Below are positions 49,747 through 56,303 of a stretch of 64,000 bases of DNA, in pieces. A program made the position numbers and the translations under genes. How positions within the stretch are numbered: the first letter of the stretch is position 1; each line of letters begins with the position of its first letter. The notes beneath the pieces were generated by a model, which was given only the letters and a program-made list of their open reading frames with translations, had not been told where the DNA came from and made no database searches. The DNA is from Saxibacter everestensis. GTDB lineage: Bacteria; Actinomycetota; Actinomycetes; Actinomycetales; Brevibacteriaceae. The DNA lies in the NCBI RefSeq assembly GCF_025787225.1, contig NZ_CP090958.1, positions 2,094,550 to 2,158,549 of the forward strand. Reading direction: 5' to 3'.

Positions 49747-50309
49747 GTTTTGAACGGCTGGTGCCCGGCGCGGTCGACACGCTCACCCGCTGGGCACCGG
49801 ATGCCCCCCGGATGGCGGGGCTGCGTGACGACTATTTGCGCTGCATCGAGACACACGGCGCCTCCGCGCTGCAAAAGGGCGGACATTCAAGCCATCTCAC
49901 CGCAAGCTGTTTCGTACTCGACCCAGCTGCCACGTCGATCCTGCTGACCTATCACCGCAAGGGCCGTTTCTGGGTGCAGTTCGGTGGGCATCTGGAAGCG
50001 GGCGATTCCTCGCTGAGCGCGGCCGCCCTTCGCGAGACCATCGAGGAAAGTGGCGTGCGGTCGTTTCGGACCGAGCCAGGGGCAATTTTCGATCTCGATC
50101 GTCACGCCCTGACGTCGGCGTTTGGCAACTGCCGCGAGCACCTCGACGTCGCCTTCGTGGCCAGCTGCGAGCGCTCCGCTCCGATCCAGGTCAGTCTGGA
50201 GAGCGAAGACGTAGCCTGGTGGCCAGTCGACGACCTGCCGCAGGATGTCGTCCCCGATCTGCCGCCGCGGGTTCACCGAGCAGTGCAATGGGCCCGCCAG
50301 GCGGCCTAG
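49743..50309 (+). CDS. Nudix hydrolase
   Basis: A 188-residue Nudix protein. The Nudix region reads GGHLEAGDSSLSAAALRE followed by TIEESGV, near residues 80-104. The usual first Glu is Asp and spacing is one residue longer than canonical, so substrate range may differ. The N-terminal 40 residues are helical. The GTG start overlaps the preceding stop by four bases, so it is cotranscribed with the Zincin_2 gene, and it is convergent with the YgjP-like gene 18 bases away. Confidence 0.85.
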   Translation: MSFERLVPGAVDTLTRWAPDAPRMAGLRDDYLRCIETHGASALQKGGHSSHLTASCFVLDPAATSILLTYHRKGRFWVQFGGHLEAGDSSLSAAALRETIEESGVRSFRTEPGAIFDLDRHALTSAFGNCREHLDVAFVASCERSAPIQVSLESEDVAWWPVDDLPQDVVPDLPPRVHRAVQWARQAA

Positions 50310-50327
50310 TCACGAAACCGCACTCCC

Positions 50328-50852
50328 TCATCGGGACTGCTCGATCCGGAGGCAGTCGGAGTACCCGTTGAGGTAGGCCTGGGCTCGTTCGGTCCGTGGA
50401 TAGGCGGATACCAGCGCCCAGAAGGCCTTGCTGTGATTTGCCTCCAGCAGATGCGCCAATTCGTGAATGATCACGTAGTCAGTCACCCACTGCGGCATCG
50501 GCTGCAGCCGATGGGAAAGGCGGATCGCGCCTACGGATGGCGTGGTCGACCCCCAGCGGCTGTTCTGGTTGCGCACCCACTCGATAGTCAGCGGATTCGC
50601 CCGGTTCCCGAGGTACTGCTTCGAGAGTTCCTCCGCCCGGCGCTGCAGGTCCATGTCGGAGCTCTTGGTCTTCGACAGCTTCTTCTGCAGCCGGGCGACC
50701 ATCTTCTCAACCCAGAAGTCCTCTTGTTCCCGGCTGAAATGCGCGGGAATCGACACCACTGTCGTGGCTCCTTCCCGGAATGCAGAGACCGACGACTTCC
50801 GGCGACGCGACCTGCGCACCTCGATCGCGGATTGAATTTCGGCTGCTGTCAT
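50328..50852 (-). CDS. YgjP-like metallopeptidase domain protein
   Basis: A 174-residue WLM/YgjP-type zinc peptidase from ATG 50852. The signature YVIIHELAHLLEANHSKAFW has HExxH and a third ligand His nearby. RNQNSRWGSTT upstream is family-typical. Function is unknown. A longer start (up to 36 residues) exists but overlaps the divergent gene and lacks a ribosome site. The frame sits in the Rv3193c-Rv3202c-like block. Confidence 0.87.
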   Translation of the reverse strand: MTAAEIQSAIEVRRSRRRKSSVSAFREGATTVVSIPAHFSREQEDFWVEKMVARLQKKLSKTKSSDMDLQRRAEELSKQYLGNRANPLTIEWVRNQNSRWGSTTPSVGAIRLSHRLQPMPQWVTDYVIIHELAHLLEANHSKAFWALVSAYPRTERAQAYLNGYSDCLRIEQSR

Positions 50853-51007
50853 GGCGACCACGGTAGCCGATGGCACTGACATCGCAGGAGCAGCGTCTCG
50901 GCAAGCCATTCTATCGGCGTATCCGGCTTCGTTTTCCACAGATTTTCGCTGGGCGCCCAATAGAACCGCTTCGTGCTCCTAGACTCATCAGCAGTGAAGG
51001 AGACCCC

Positions 51008-51940
51008 ATGTTGCAACTGTTTCCGGCTCTGCGCCAGGCATGGCGCAGCTCTCACTGCCTCCAGCTTGGAATCCAGGACCCGGTCCTGATCGACGGGTTG
51101 GACGGCAAGGACGAGTTATTGCTCGTTGCTCTGCGGGCCGGCGTCAGCGAAGCTGAGTATCGTCGGCGGACGGCAGAGCTCGGTGTCGATCCCGCCCGGG
51201 CCGATAGTTTGCTTCGCCTGCTCGGCGAGGCGCAGGCCCTCGTGCCGGCACCAGAGAACACCGCGGAACGTGTCACGAATCCGTATGACAGCCGGCTGGC
51301 TCACTTCTCTGCCGTCTCGCTGAAGTACCGGGAGACGCCGAGTGTGATTTCGTCTCGGCGGTCCGGCAAGCGGGTGTTACTCGTCGGCCATCCCGGGTTC
51401 GCCGACCAGCTCAAGTTGGCGCTTGCGACCGGCGGGATCACGGCAGACCTGACCGATTGTCTTCCGGAGCGGGATCCGGATGTCGATCTCGTGGTGCTCA
51501 TCGCCTCGGATGTAGCCGATCCTGCGCTCGCTGACGAACTCATGCGCAACGATATCCCGCACCTTCTGGTGACAACAGGCGAAACAACGCTGACGGTTGG
51601 GCCGCTGGTCGTGCCCGGCACTACGGCCTGTCTGCGGTGTTCCGAATTGCAGCATTGCGACGAGGACGCCCAATGGCCGATCGTCTTTGCCCAGCTATGC
51701 GCAGGTTCCCGGCCGCCACCGGACCCGGATCCCCTGCTGGTGACGGCTGGGGCAGGGCTGGCGGCCCTGCAGTGCGCAACCTTCCTCGATGCCCGTCGCA
51801 CGGCCTCGGCGCTCTCCGCCAGGCTTGAACTCGCACTGCCCGACGGCGATGTCAGCCGACTGGATATCACCCCACACCCGCGGTGCGGGTGCCAGACGAT
51901 GCCGACATCCAGCGCAGCGTCTGCCTGGGATGCCAGTTGA
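51008..51940 (+). CDS. ThiF/cyclodehydratase-like protein (actinobacterial, Rv3196-like)
   Basis: A 310-residue protein from ATG 51008, with AAGGAG six bases upstream. It resembles TOMM cyclodehydratase partners and ThiF-like folds: PLVVPGTTACLRCSEL contains a CxxC, HCDEDAQWP follows, and the C-terminal PHPRCGCQ gives a second Cys pair, suggesting a zinc site. No ATP-loop of an active E1 is clear. No peptide precursor gene is visible nearby, so a bacteriocin role is not supported. The order matches Rv3195-Rv3196. Confidence 0.8.
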   Translation: MLQLFPALRQAWRSSHCLQLGIQDPVLIDGLDGKDELLLVALRAGVSEAEYRRRTAELGVDPARADSLLRLLGEAQALVPAPENTAERVTNPYDSRLAHFSAVSLKYRETPSVISSRRSGKRVLLVGHPGFADQLKLALATGGITADLTDCLPERDPDVDLVVLIASDVADPALADELMRNDIPHLLVTTGETTLTVGPLVVPGTTACLRCSELQHCDEDAQWPIVFAQLCAGSRPPPDPDPLLVTAGAGLAALQCATFLDARRTASALSARLELALPDGDVSRLDITPHPRCGCQTMPTSSAASAWDAS

Positions 51941-52108
51941 CCGTCGTCTTGGGACCGTGGTTGAGCTCCGAGGTCGCAGCGAGCATCCCCGCCCGATGCA
52001 CCAGCTGCGACGGCCACAGTCCGGACCATTGACGGACGGTCCATCGGCAGCTGGCCTCCCGGCTGCGTCAGAACAGCCGCAACCGGGGCGGCCGGCCGCA
52101 GGCATCGG
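51941..52108. other. Spacer with no recognised element
   Basis: Between the cyclodehydratase-like gene and the 64-residue ORF. In mycobacteria an ABC1-type kinase gene (Rv3197) lies here; no trace of it was seen. Confidence 0.4.
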
Positions 52109-52303
52109 TCAGCGGATTCCCTTAACAACGCCGGCCAGGTAGACCTCCCGGTTGCGACGTTCCAGCCGCAGCCGGTCCTCGGTTGGGTTGTCTGGCTCGA
52201 TCGCACTGACCATTAGTGCCAGTTGCTTTAATTTCCCGAGCCGGCGTGACCAAGAACCTAAACGCTGTCTGAGTCGTGGCCGGCGTGCTGCCTTCTTTAA
52301 CAT
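52109..52303 (-). CDS. Small conserved-looking protein of unknown function
   Basis: An ORF of 64 residues with AAGGA six bases before the ATG at 52303. The product is basic and Arg/Lys-rich at the N terminus (MLKKAARRPRLRQRLGSW), then has a hydrophobic stretch KLKQLALMVSAIEP and an acidic/basic tail ending NREVYLAGVVKGIR. It looks soluble and helical. The GC-rich hairpin CCCG-TTTT-CGGG lies just upstream. It is on the same strand as whiB7, 173 bases beyond it. No homologue is recognised. Confidence 0.6.
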   Translation of the reverse strand: MLKKAARRPRLRQRLGSWSRRLGKLKQLALMVSAIEPDNPTEDRLRLERRNREVYLAGVVKGIR

Positions 52304-52476
52304 AACCATTCCTTCGTGCCCGAAAACGGGCGCTAAAACATTGCTCGACGGCGCAGGCCAAGCCCACGCCAACATTGGTGGAACATCGCAATTAGCGACG
52401 TGATTTCGAAGCGCTCGGATGCCGCCGCGGCTTGGAACAGGTGCGATTATCCAAGCAATACAACGACCGGGTGTGC

Positions 52477-52782
52477 CTAAGCCGCCGAGGCAACCTTCCG
52501 GGGCCGGCCGCGACCGCGCTTCCTGGCCACAATGACGCCTTCGACGAACAGCTCGCCGCCCCAGACGCCAGAGTGCTCACCGCGCTCCTTGGCACCTTCC
52601 AGGCACGCGGCACGCAGTGGGCATTCGGCGCACAGCAGTTTTGCCATTTCTATGTCCCGCGGTGACTCGGCGAACCAGAGCTCTGGGCTGTTTCGTTGAC
52701 AGGGAGATGCCGGTACCTGCGGATTTTGCCCGGCAGATAGCGCTTCTGACTGCAGCCCGGATAGCAAATCGGGCAACAACAT
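52477..52782 (-). CDS. whiB7: WhiB family redox transcription factor WhiB7
   Basis: A 101-residue [4Fe-4S] regulator from ATG 52782 (AAGGAAT at five-base spacing). Four cysteines: SPCQRN, LLCAECP, AACLEG. The GVWGG turn and a C-terminal AT-hook RGRGRPRK separate it from WhiB1/2 and identify WhiB7, which activates antibiotic resistance genes with SigA. It is next to uvrD2 as in mycobacteria. Its leader contains a uORF and terminator, so induction by ribosome inhibitors is expected. Confidence 0.95.
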   Translation of the reverse strand: MLLPDLLSGLQSEALSAGQNPQVPASPCQRNSPELWFAESPRDIEMAKLLCAECPLRAACLEGAKERGEHSGVWGGELFVEGVIVARKRGRGRPRKVASAA

Positions 52783-52870
52783 GGTGATTCCTTCGCTTGT
52801 GAGAGGTGAGTGTCCGTGGCTGAGTTTGGGAGACAGTCGAACCTCTGCGGCGGCACTCGCACTGGTGCCG

Positions 52871-52910
52871 AAACTACAAAGGCCGCGTATCCCGATGGGG
52901 ATCGCGGCCT
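52871..52910 (-). terminator. Attenuator hairpin in the whiB7 leader
   Basis: AGGCCGCG (52910-52903) pairs with CGCGGCCT (52887-52880), with inner ATCCC/GGGAT, then TTGTAGTTT. It lies between the uORF and whiB7 ATG and would stop transcription unless an alternative fold forms. Confidence 0.78.
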
Positions 52911-52931
52911 GTGCCAAGCGAATGGCGAGAA

Positions 52932-53036
52932 CTAACTCAGGCGGTCGCGGATCCCGGAATGCTGACGGATGCGGGGCAGGATGAACTGCACCCGGTCCAT
53001 GCCGAGCGTGCCGTATGTCGCTATTGCTGTGTTCAT
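52932..53036 (-). CDS. whiB7 leader uORF (34 codons)
   Basis: Preceded by an excellent AAAGGAGG site at short spacing. The product is 34 residues (starts MNTAIATYGTLGMDRVQF, ends GIRDRLS). Its stop is 150 bases before whiB7 and 22 bases before the attenuator. Known whiB7/wblC leaders work by ribosome stalling on a uORF; this arrangement fits, but the codons that would stall are not evident. Confidence 0.78.
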   Translation of the reverse strand: MNTAIATYGTLGMDRVQFILPRIRQHSGIRDRLS

Positions 53037-53190
53037 ATTTCCCACCTCCTTTTCCATGGTGCCTTGCGCGGTAACACAAGGCACATTCGAACCTGACAAC
53101 TACACTCTAGACAGTCGACATCATCGCGCGCCAGTTATTTAATTAGTTTCTTCCTTAACTACCACTTTGAGGCACTCGCCAGCTTTCCGA
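53037..53190 (-). promoter_or_regulatory. whiB7 promoter region with AT-rich box
   Basis: On the minus strand an AT-rich stretch (AAACTAATTAAATAACTGG, about 53132-53150) precedes a TAGAGT -10 element near 53105-53110, about 22-25 bases away. WhiB7-dependent promoters in mycobacteria carry an AT-rich box just upstream of -35, so autoregulation is plausible. Confidence 0.55.
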
Positions 53191-55311
53191 TCAGGTGTTT
53201 TTCGCGTCGCCGGAATGTGCCGAGACCGCCGATAGAACCTGCTCTCCATAGCGTTCAAGCTTGGCCGGCCCCACCCCGGGCACCTCTGCGAGGGCGGCCA
53301 GGTCGCTGGGACAAAGCTCCGCTATCGCCATCAGGGTGACATCGGTGAACACAACGAACGCCGGCACGTTACCCTCCTGGGCGTGCCGCAGCCGCCAGGC
53401 CTTCAGTGCTTCGAAGAGCTCCTCGTTGTATGCCGGCGGGCATTCTGCGCACCGGGCCAGTTTTCGCTCGGTCACACTGTGCAGCAGCTTGCCGCAACCG
53501 GCACAGTGCGTCGGCAGGGGCTTCTTCGACCTCGGCTTTCGAGCAGTACCCTCCGTCGGGTTTTTGGCTGCCGGCCGCGGCCGTGAACGGGCGCCTGCCG
53601 TGTCCGTCGGCCGCAACTGGGCGATAAACCGCGAAACGCGGCGGTTCGCCCGGCCTCCAGGTGACCTGGACAGCGACCAGCTGAGCGTCAGGCGGGTCTC
53701 CGCCCGGGTAATGCCGACGTACAGCAGACGCCGCTCCTCGTCCACGGCTTCTGTCGTATCCGCGAATGAGATCGGCATCAGACCCTCGTTCAGGCCGACC
53801 AGGTATACCGACGCCCACTCAAGGCCCTTGGCCGCATGCAGCGAGGCTAGTGTGACCCCCTGCACCGTTGGTGCATGCTGGTTGTTCGCCCGATCCTCGA
53901 GCTCGGTGATCACGTCCCGCAGAGTCGGCGGCACGTCGGACTCACGAGCCGCAATCTCATCGGCAAGCGCCACGATGGCCTGCAACGATTCCCATCGCTC
54001 ACGAACAGCACCTGCAGTCTCAGGCGGGTGCTCGCTCCAGCCGAGCGACCCGAGAACGTCGCGGACATTCTGGCCGATCGGTTCGCCAGGTGCGACCGAA
54101 CGCGCGGCGCCGCGAATCAGCAGCATCGCCTCGCGCACTTCCTTACGGGAGAAGAACCGCTCACCGCCGCGGACCAGGTAACCCACGCCGGCGGCGGCAA
54201 GGGACTGCTCAAGAGCAGCGCTCTGGGCGTTCGTCCGGTACAGGATGGCGATCGAACTTGCAGGCGTACCGCTGTCGACTTCCTGGCGCACCAGCCGGGC
54301 GATGCCGGTCGCCTCGGCCTCATCGTCAGGAAATTCCTTGAAGACCGGCTGAGGGCCGGACTCCCGCGCCGCGATGAGTTCAAGGCGGCCGAGTCCGGAC
54401 GCCGTTGCGAGGAGCCGGTTGGCCAGGGAGACGACCTGGGGAGTTGACCGATAGTCGCGCACCAGCTTGACCAGGGTCGCGTTGTCGAACCTGCGGGTGA
54501 AGCCGAGCAGGTGCTCCGGGCTGGCACCGGTGAATGAGTAAATGGTCTGGCTGGCGTCGCCGACAACACACAGATCGTCACGGTCGCCCAGCCACAGGTC
54601 AAGCAGGCGCTGCTGGAGCAGGGAAACGTCCTGGTACTCGTCGACGACGAAGTGCCGGTACTGCGAGCGCACCGTTCTGGCGATGTCCTCGTGGTCAGTG
54701 AGGATACCGGCCATCAGCAGCAGGACATCCTCGAAGTCAAGCACTCCCCTGTCGATCTTGACCTCTTCGTAGACCCGAAGCAGTGAGGTCATCGTTGCAA
54801 CATCGAGCCCCGCCGGCATTGGACGGTGCTTCTTCGCAACCGCTGCGGCATAGGTCGCGTCGGTCAGCATGGAGACCTTGGCCCATTCAAGTTCCGCAGC
54901 AAGATCGCGGATCGTCGCCCTGTCGGTATTGATCCGCAGCCGGTGCCCGGCTTCCGCTAGCAGCGGAGCCTTGTGCTCGGCCAGTCGCGGGATCGACCCG
55001 CCAATCGCCTGAGGCCAAAAGTACTGCAGCTGGCGCAAAGCGGCGGAATGGAAGGTGCGCGCCTGCACAGTCGGGGCTCCCAGCTCCCTGAGCCGGGACC
55101 GCATCTCACCGGCCGCGCGAGCGGTGAAGGTGACGGCAAGGACTTCGGTTGGCTTATAGATCCCGGAGGCTACCCCGTAGGCGATCCGGTGCGTCATCGC
55201 CCGAGTTTTGCCGGTGCCAGCGCCCGCCAGAACACAAACCGGACCGTTGAGCGCGGTGGCGACCTCCCGCTGTTCGGGATCGAGCGCTTCGAGAAGTCGA
55301 TCAGGGGTCAC
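53191..55311 (-). CDS. uvrD2: ATP-dependent DNA helicase UvrD2
   Basis: SF1 helicase of 706 residues. Walker A LAGAGTGKTRAMTH (about 28-41); motif Ia TFTARAAGEMRSRL; motif II/III DEYQDVS; motif VI GITRAETRLTLSW. Beyond 560 comes a basic linker, a tetracysteine zinc domain (CAGCGK ... CAEC) and an HRDC domain, as in mycobacterial UvrD2. Role: DNA repair and replication. Start ATG at 55311 overlaps the nudC stop by four bases. Confidence 0.94.
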   Translation of the reverse strand: MTPDRLLEALDPEQREVATALNGPVCVLAGAGTGKTRAMTHRIAYGVASGIYKPTEVLAVTFTARAAGEMRSRLRELGAPTVQARTFHSAALRQLQYFWPQAIGGSIPRLAEHKAPLLAEAGHRLRINTDRATIRDLAAELEWAKVSMLTDATYAAAVAKKHRPMPAGLDVATMTSLLRVYEEVKIDRGVLDFEDVLLLMAGILTDHEDIARTVRSQYRHFVVDEYQDVSLLQQRLLDLWLGDRDDLCVVGDASQTIYSFTGASPEHLLGFTRRFDNATLVKLVRDYRSTPQVVSLANRLLATASGLGRLELIAARESGPQPVFKEFPDDEAEATGIARLVRQEVDSGTPASSIAILYRTNAQSAALEQSLAAAGVGYLVRGGERFFSRKEVREAMLLIRGAARSVAPGEPIGQNVRDVLGSLGWSEHPPETAGAVRERWESLQAIVALADEIAARESDVPPTLRDVITELEDRANNQHAPTVQGVTLASLHAAKGLEWASVYLVGLNEGLMPISFADTTEAVDEERRLLYVGITRAETRLTLSWSLSRSPGGRANRRVSRFIAQLRPTDTAGARSRPRPAAKNPTEGTARKPRSKKPLPTHCAGCGKLLHSVTERKLARCAECPPAYNEELFEALKAWRLRHAQEGNVPAFVVFTDVTLMAIAELCPSDLAALAEVPGVGPAKLERYGEQVLSAVSAHSGDAKNT

Positions 55312-56303
55312 GGAAGCGGCCGGCCCAGCCAGGTCTCGATCAACTGATGGGCAATTGACGCCGCGCCCGGCAACTCAATTTCTCCCGAGGCCGCGGCGGC
55401 GAATAGCTCGCCCCGGGTGAACCAGCGCGCATCGAGAATCTCCACACCGTCGATTGCGATCTCGGTTGATTCGGCAGAGGCGAAGAAGCCCAGCATCAGC
55501 GAGGACGGAAACGGCCAGGGCTGCGATCCGAGGTAGCGCGGGTCGGTTACCACAACGCCGGTTTCTTCGAAGACCTCACGGATAACCGCCGATTCCAACG
55601 ATTCCCCAGGTTCCACGAATCCGGCCAGGGTGGAATAGCGGTTCGACGGGAACAGTGCGTTGTGCGCCAGCAGGATCCGTTCCTCGCCGTCATCACCGAC
55701 CGGGTGGATGACGGCCATGATCACGGCTGGATCGGTACGCGGAAAATGTTCGCTGTTGTCGGCTGGATCCCGCCGGACCCATCCGCCCTGCTCGGGGATT
55801 GTCGGCGTACCGGTGCGGGGGCTGAACTGGTGGGTGCGATGCCAGTTACTGACCGCGACGAGTTCGGTCAGCGCGCCGATGTCGCGATCGGAAAGCTCCG
55901 TGGCGAGGTCGCGCAGCGCGCGCCATGATTCAGCTACCGGCTCCAGCCGGGCGGCATCGTCGTCCGAGAGGGCGACGCCGACAATTGCTGTTGGCTTATC
56001 GAAGTCGGCGTCGTCCGGCAGCGTCACGCCGAGAAAGATCCGTAGCAGCCCGGTACCGACGTCCGCAGGCGAAAAGTAGCGCAGTCGGTCGCCGTACACC
56101 AACGTCTGGCCATTGTGAACGACGATAACTCTGGTGGCCTCGTCACGCCACAGTTCATCGAACAGTTCCGGGTTGTTCCGGTAGAGGTAAGCGCGGTCAA
56201 GAGCCGAACGAGACAAGCTGCGGTGCCTGAATCCGCCCCGTTCACCAGAGGCATTCGGCAGTGAGGGAGTGTGGTCGGATGTCATTGCCGGAATGCTGCT
56301 CAT
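55308..56303 (-). CDS. nudC: NAD(+) diphosphatase (NudC)
   Basis: A 331-residue NADH/NAD pyrophosphatase that also decaps NAD-RNA in relatives. The Nudix box GFVEPGESLESAVIREVFEE and the NudC-specific SQPWPFPSSLM are present. The zinc-ribbon cysteines of E. coli NudC are missing (SPRTGTPTIPEQGGWVRRDP), as in the mycobacterial protein. The start at 56303 or 56285 is uncertain; neither has a strong ribosome site. Divergent from the APH-like gene, overlapping uvrD2. Confidence 0.9.
   Translation of the reverse strand: MSSIPAMTSDHTPSLPNASGERGGFRHRSLSRSALDRAYLYRNNPELFDELWRDEATRVIVVHNGQTLVYGDRLRYFSPADVGTGLLRIFLGVTLPDDADFDKPTAIVGVALSDDDAARLEPVAESWRALRDLATELSDRDIGALTELVAVSNWHRTHQFSPRTGTPTIPEQGGWVRRDPADNSEHFPRTDPAVIMAVIHPVGDDGEERILLAHNALFPSNRYSTLAGFVEPGESLESAVIREVFEETGVVVTDPRYLGSQPWPFPSSLMLGFFASAESTEIAIDGVEILDARWFTRGELFAAAASGEIELPGAASIAHQLIETWLGRPLP

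Follow-up and report, generated by a model that had tools for sequence, protein, structure and literature searches.

The whiB7 locus and its leader

The window, the whole 64-kb stretch of DNA that was analyzed, codes on its minus strand for a WhiB7 protein. A leader containing a short upstream open reading frame (uORF), a predicted terminator hairpin and a predicted promoter precedes the gene (Table 1). The protein has a WhiB domain (PF02467, E 3.8e-13). A uvrD2-like gene adjoins whiB7 both in the window genome and in its nearest relative (G197, L034). Within the family of the window genome, whiB7 is encoded only in these two genomes at E <= 1e-12. At that threshold none of the 57 genomes listed for the large sister genus g2 encodes it, and g66 lacks it too, which suggests whiB7 may have been lost in g2. 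A WhiB7 scan of genome contigs found two Gordonia loci only. The whiB7 frame is open 5' through the entire leader to a TTG at 53079 (window 52477-53079, minus strand; 200 aa), and automatic annotation could therefore miscall the uORF and the terminator as part of whiB7.

Table 1. Features of the whiB7 leader and its surroundings, in window positions
Feature	Position	Strand	Details and basis
uvrD2-like helicase gene (upstream context)	53191..55311	-	identified by reading the translation
Predicted WhiB7-type promoter	53104..53140	-	AT box TTAAATAA; pattern match; relatives
Promoter -35-like TGGCGC	53133-53128	-	18-nt spacer to -10
Promoter -10 TAGAGT	53109-53104	-	predicted transcription start ~53101-53097
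5' hairpin just before the uORF Shine-Dalgarno	53059..53084	-	11 bp; -17.8 kcal/mol, z -6.3
uORF Shine-Dalgarno AAAGGAGGTG	53043..53052	-	near-perfect
uORF, 34 codons and TAG stop	52932..53036	-	ATG 53036, TAG 52934-52932; reading-frame list, sequence
Antiterminator 5' strand GGGATCCGCGACCGCCT (uORF codons 28-33)	52939..52955	-	pairing, folds, shuffles
Antiterminator loop	52913..52938	-	two small predicted stems: GAG..CTC at the stop codon; GCCA..TGGC
Intrinsic terminator (attenuator) hairpin, predicted	52880..52910	-	13 bp; fold energy, order-wide hairpin
Terminator 5' arm AGGCCGCGATCCC	52898..52910	-	common to terminator and antiterminator
T-rich tail TTTGTAGTTT	52870..52879	-	directly 3' of hairpin; imperfect, modest
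whiB7 CDS, 101 aa	52477..52782	-	PF02467; AT-hook RGRGRPRK near the C-terminus

The uORF encodes the peptide MNTAIATYGTLGMDRVQFILPRIRQHSGIRDRLS, with two Ala in 34 residues and without a single-residue run before codon 22. The 9-mer AAGGAGGTG of its Shine-Dalgarno (SD) sequence occurs once in the window against 0.25 occurrences expected by chance. Just 5' of the SD is a stable hairpin. The nearest relative also has a strong hairpin at the equivalent site, different in sequence, and such a hairpin is not general in the order (z < -2 in only 5 of 51 leaders).

The predicted terminator lies 21 nt beyond the end of the uORF and reads AGGCCGCG ATCCC-CATC-GGGAT-A-CGCGGCCT, with CATC as the loop. At -24.0 kcal/mol versus a shuffle mean of -9.9 (z -5.5), it was matched by 0 of 200 shuffles; the complete leader also folds better than 200 of 200 shuffles (z -3.8). 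A strict consensus scan for terminators and promoters made no calls at the leader because its rules are E. coli-like, and no Rfam family matched window positions 50000-56000 at E up to 1. An earlier note on this DNA had described a well-started 34-codon uORF, a hairpin with a T-rich tail between it and whiB7, and an AT-rich promoter. All three held up, and the hairpin has 13 bp, not just 8. A small inverted repeat, CGGCAC..GTGCCG, is found 3' of the terminator (window 52868-52849, minus strand), and GGCAC/GTGCC is repeated elsewhere within the leader.

An antiterminator and its dependence on ribosome position

The earlier note had seen no obvious alternative antiterminator, a view that did not survive. 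Codons 28-33 of the uORF (GGGATCCGCGACCGCCT) are complementary to the 5' arm of the terminator, interrupted by a one-base and a three-base bulge. The 58-nt antiterminator segment has a fold energy of -24.5 kcal/mol versus -24.0 for the terminator. The end of the uORF pairs with its own arm at -22.0, while all 54 uORF ends taken from other leaders pair worse (mean -14.3). This pairing is also stronger than that of 200 out of 200 dinucleotide shuffles of the same uORF end (z -3.8). When the uORF was recoded synonymously, 13 of 2000 versions matched or beat the real pairing. Of 2000 permutations of synonymous codons within the uORF, 136 gave a partner at least as good, so at the codon level this leader is just mildly exceptional.

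In the full-length leader at equilibrium the terminator has a probability of 1.0 with the ribosome masked at any of 18 positions. As such folds are uninformative on a switch, we used truncated transcripts in which the RNA ends after the terminator 5' arm and a ribosome is placed along the uORF. The ribosome was taken either to separate the upstream RNA or just to mask 31 nt. Without a ribosome the antiterminator probability is 0.99-1.0, and it is the same with a ribosome that separates the upstream RNA at codons 1-22. With masking only, the antiterminator forms at codons 1-16 and 22 and less surely at codons 18-20 (0.46-0.86). Once half of the 3' arm is made, this masking-only value for codons 18-20 drops to 0.02-0.12. 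A ribosome anywhere from codon 24 to the stop leaves an antiterminator probability of 0.0-0.1 in the truncated transcript. Folding the leader with the uORF covered and uncovered, as the earlier note had proposed, thus yields a competing fold that depends on the ribosome in truncated transcripts. In these models the codon dependence is the behavior expected from a ribosome-gated switch.

Since the full-length RNA always favors the terminator, the switch must be kinetic. A rough saddle-path estimate puts the barrier from antiterminator to terminator at ~8-10 kcal/mol with the 3' arm complete. Assuming ordinary prefactors, the antiterminator would last about a second or less, a lifetime that may be similar to the time a polymerase needs for clearing the T tract.

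whiB7 leaders across the order

To compare this leader with others, we surveyed 149 sampled genomes of the order, 80 of which encode a whiB7 homologue at E <= 1e-20. A recognizable GC-rich hairpin is present in 63 examined leaders (55 non-redundant), mostly of the GGCCGCGG..CCGCGGCC type. Conservation of the hairpin with its T-rich tail extends through the order, with a z of -6.1 versus column shuffles. This bears on whether the uORF works mainly via Rho-dependent termination or translational coupling and not via the hairpin switch. Such a precedent is said to exist in M. tuberculosis, where, as the title of D'Halluin et al. 2023 has it, Rho and translated uORFs shape premature termination, and the imperfect T tail of the window's terminator would fit it. 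However, a strong hairpin and T-rich tail have been kept across the order, and Rho would act on an untranslated uORF, the polarity opposite to induction by translation inhibitors. A mainly Rho- or coupling-based mechanism has very little chance of being right.

An SD-led uORF with its stop 7-31 nt before the terminator is found in 51 of the 63 leaders under a search rule that allowed -5 to 45 nt. These uORFs code for 31-99 aa (median 75), and the peptide is not conserved. Even the nearest relative, with a uORF of 31 codons, has no peptide similarity or shared motif. In the uORFs of the order taken together, alanine is the commonest residue (14%). The mycobacterial whiB7 responds to alanine starvation according to a passage of PMC10727445 that cites a Rock laboratory report. 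The uORF could on those grounds sense one signal, through a drug-dependent arrest peptide or starvation for a single amino acid, and not general translation speed. A high Ala content is however expected from GC-rich genomes, and the window's uORF has neither many alanines nor an early run of any residue. An unconserved peptide of such variable length, with no motif common to the nearest relative, also argues against it, and a specific signal seems improbable.

We examined the pairing of uORF end and terminator arm in a non-redundant set of 54 whiB7 leaders from the order. In 28 of these, the sequence within 250 nt that pairs best with the arm has its end 15-50 nt ahead of the terminator, with 8.0 expected (p 2e-10). 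Across leaders, own uORF ends pair better than foreign ones (p 9e-8), better than stretches located farther 5' within that leader (p 1e-5) and better than their own dinucleotide shuffles (p 2e-9), though as the leaders share ancestry all these comparative p values are optimistic. Arm and partner change together, as in GGAGTCC/GACTCC, GGAGCCC/GGCTCC, GGACCC/GGGTCC and GGATCCCG/TCGGGA; the pair in the window is GATCCC/GGGATC. RNAalifold, run on antiterminator regions that had been aligned by sequence without guidance, gave no covariation signal, probably because the uORF ends fail to align by sequence. When the arm was scanned for partners over the entire leader, most individual leaders were unexceptional versus shuffled regions. 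The signal thus lies in position and covariation and does not show in each leader taken singly. In the nearest relative a T6 tail follows a strong terminator, the promoter is similar, and a GCCGT..ACGGC stem stands between uORF and terminator at the position of the antiterminator loop; its antiterminator at the equivalent site is only weak (-13.5 kcal/mol).

These data also weigh on the possibility that the terminator is constitutive, that induction comes solely via the promoter through WhiB7 autoregulation, and that the pairing of uORF and terminator is incidental. A WhiB7-type promoter is indeed predicted at the leader, and at equilibrium the full leader never adopts the antiterminator fold. 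Yet in the 54 leaders the place of the partner and its complementarity depart far from chance, and both follow the arm as it changes. In addition, every one of the 51 scored leaders has its uORF stop at 7-31 nt from the terminator (the rule allowed -5 to 45 nt). An induction through the promoter alone strikes us as quite unlikely.

The uORF comparison raised in the earlier note thus had a divided outcome: the uORF, its spacing from the terminator and its complementarity to the arm are recurrent in the order, while the peptide is not. From complementarity kept while the peptide varies we infer that a general sensor of translation speed is favored over a specific arrest peptide.

A proposed uORF-controlled attenuator and its predicted promoter

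We propose that the leader is a cis-acting, uORF-controlled transcription attenuator of whiB7, a reading to which we give a probability of roughly 0.88. RNA polymerase would initiate at about 53100, at a promoter probably activated by WhiB7 itself. At normal translation speed the leading ribosome, at codons 24-34, would cover GGGATCCGCGACCGCCT. That would leave the terminator 5' arm available to its 3' arm, and transcription would end ahead of whiB7. If the ribosome slows down or halts within the first two thirds of the uORF or fails to initiate, codons 28-33 would be exposed. They would capture the terminator 5' arm before the 3' arm exists, allowing read-through into whiB7. Computation shows the elements, the two mutually exclusive helices, the way truncated folds depend on where the ribosome stands, and the order-wide covariation; where transcription starts, that it terminates in the cell, that drugs induce the gene and that WhiB7 regulates itself are putative parts of the model. 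The antiterminator bases are exactly defined, which opens the mechanism to compensatory mutation.

Lee, Lee and Roe 2022 and Burian and Thompson 2018 reportedly describe a uORF-mediated transcription attenuator of whiB7/wblC. The whiB7/wblC switch by uORF-mediated attenuation is also described in passages of PMC10727445, PMC9618640 and PMC11550727 that cite Lee et al. 2022. Ribosome-mediated attenuation is thus already published for whiB7/wblC and the lineage is what is new. With this and the competing fold, the attenuation architecture seen in the earlier note is supported as the best reading. Like the published attenuator, the window has the same gene with a long leader, an SD-led uORF, a Rho-independent terminator, an antiterminator built from uORF and terminator sequence (here computed) and an AT box just before the -35 (here a sequence feature alone). 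Those defining features of the whiB7/wblC attenuator that can be judged from sequence are all present. Unlike it, the window's uORF is short, with a sequence of its own, the arm is GATCCC in place of the usual GGAnCCC with the uORF end changed to match, and there is the additional strong 5' hairpin.

In the mycobacterial whiB7 leader (PMC4128351), too, the uORF begins ~10 nt after the SD and is followed by a stem-loop with a T-rich tail. The distance from transcription start to whiB7 is ~350 nt there versus a predicted ~320 nt here, and attenuation was observed by RNA-seq there while that of the window is predicted from sequence. In the ilvB1 attenuator of M. tuberculosis (PMC13236596) ribosome position on a leader ORF likewise selects terminator or antiterminator. 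Amino-acid operon attenuators of that kind rely on runs of regulatory codons that specify the end product; the window's uORF has none. The order-wide covariation backs the antiterminator model independently of the experiments in Streptomyces and mycobacteria, and with the proposed attenuator an antibiotic-stress switch already known elsewhere would also occur in this lineage, where the sister genus seems to have lost whiB7.

WhiB7/WblC promoters have an AT-rich site a few bases before the -35 and a 16-19 nt spacer (PMC3905903, PMC7157823). The layout in the window, AAATAA-C-TGGCGC-18 nt-TAGAGT, fits this and is a putative WhiB7 site. Several relatives have a similar AAATA..TTG/TGG element 5' of their uORF. 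The pattern AAATAABTGGCG-N16-22-TAGNGT, derived from the window and the nearest relative's leader, has one match in the window and was found in 0 of 100 shuffles. Over the whole genome the stringent pattern has two matches, with zero for reversed-pattern controls. The second (L087:1503-1539; G000:C1:996839-996875) is ~140 nt 5' of an RsgA-family GTPase gene. An RsgA paralogue is activated by WblC in S. coelicolor (PMC7157823), which supports both genomic matches as WhiB7 promoters.

It is possible, though doubtful, that the whiB7 attenuator senses translation speed independently of the peptide, with the RNA leading its evolution, and that the rsgA-like gene is a second one similarly wired in this genome. 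In such a sensor peptide and length would drift freely and the 3' end of the uORF would stay complementary to a drifting arm. The rsgA-like leader has an unexceptional fold (z -0.75), and the start region of its gene is within a predicted hairpin. Between the promoter copy and the gene lies an SD-led uORF of 21 codons, MTVLNDLPQKAIVVSRDARQR, at L087:1573-1638.
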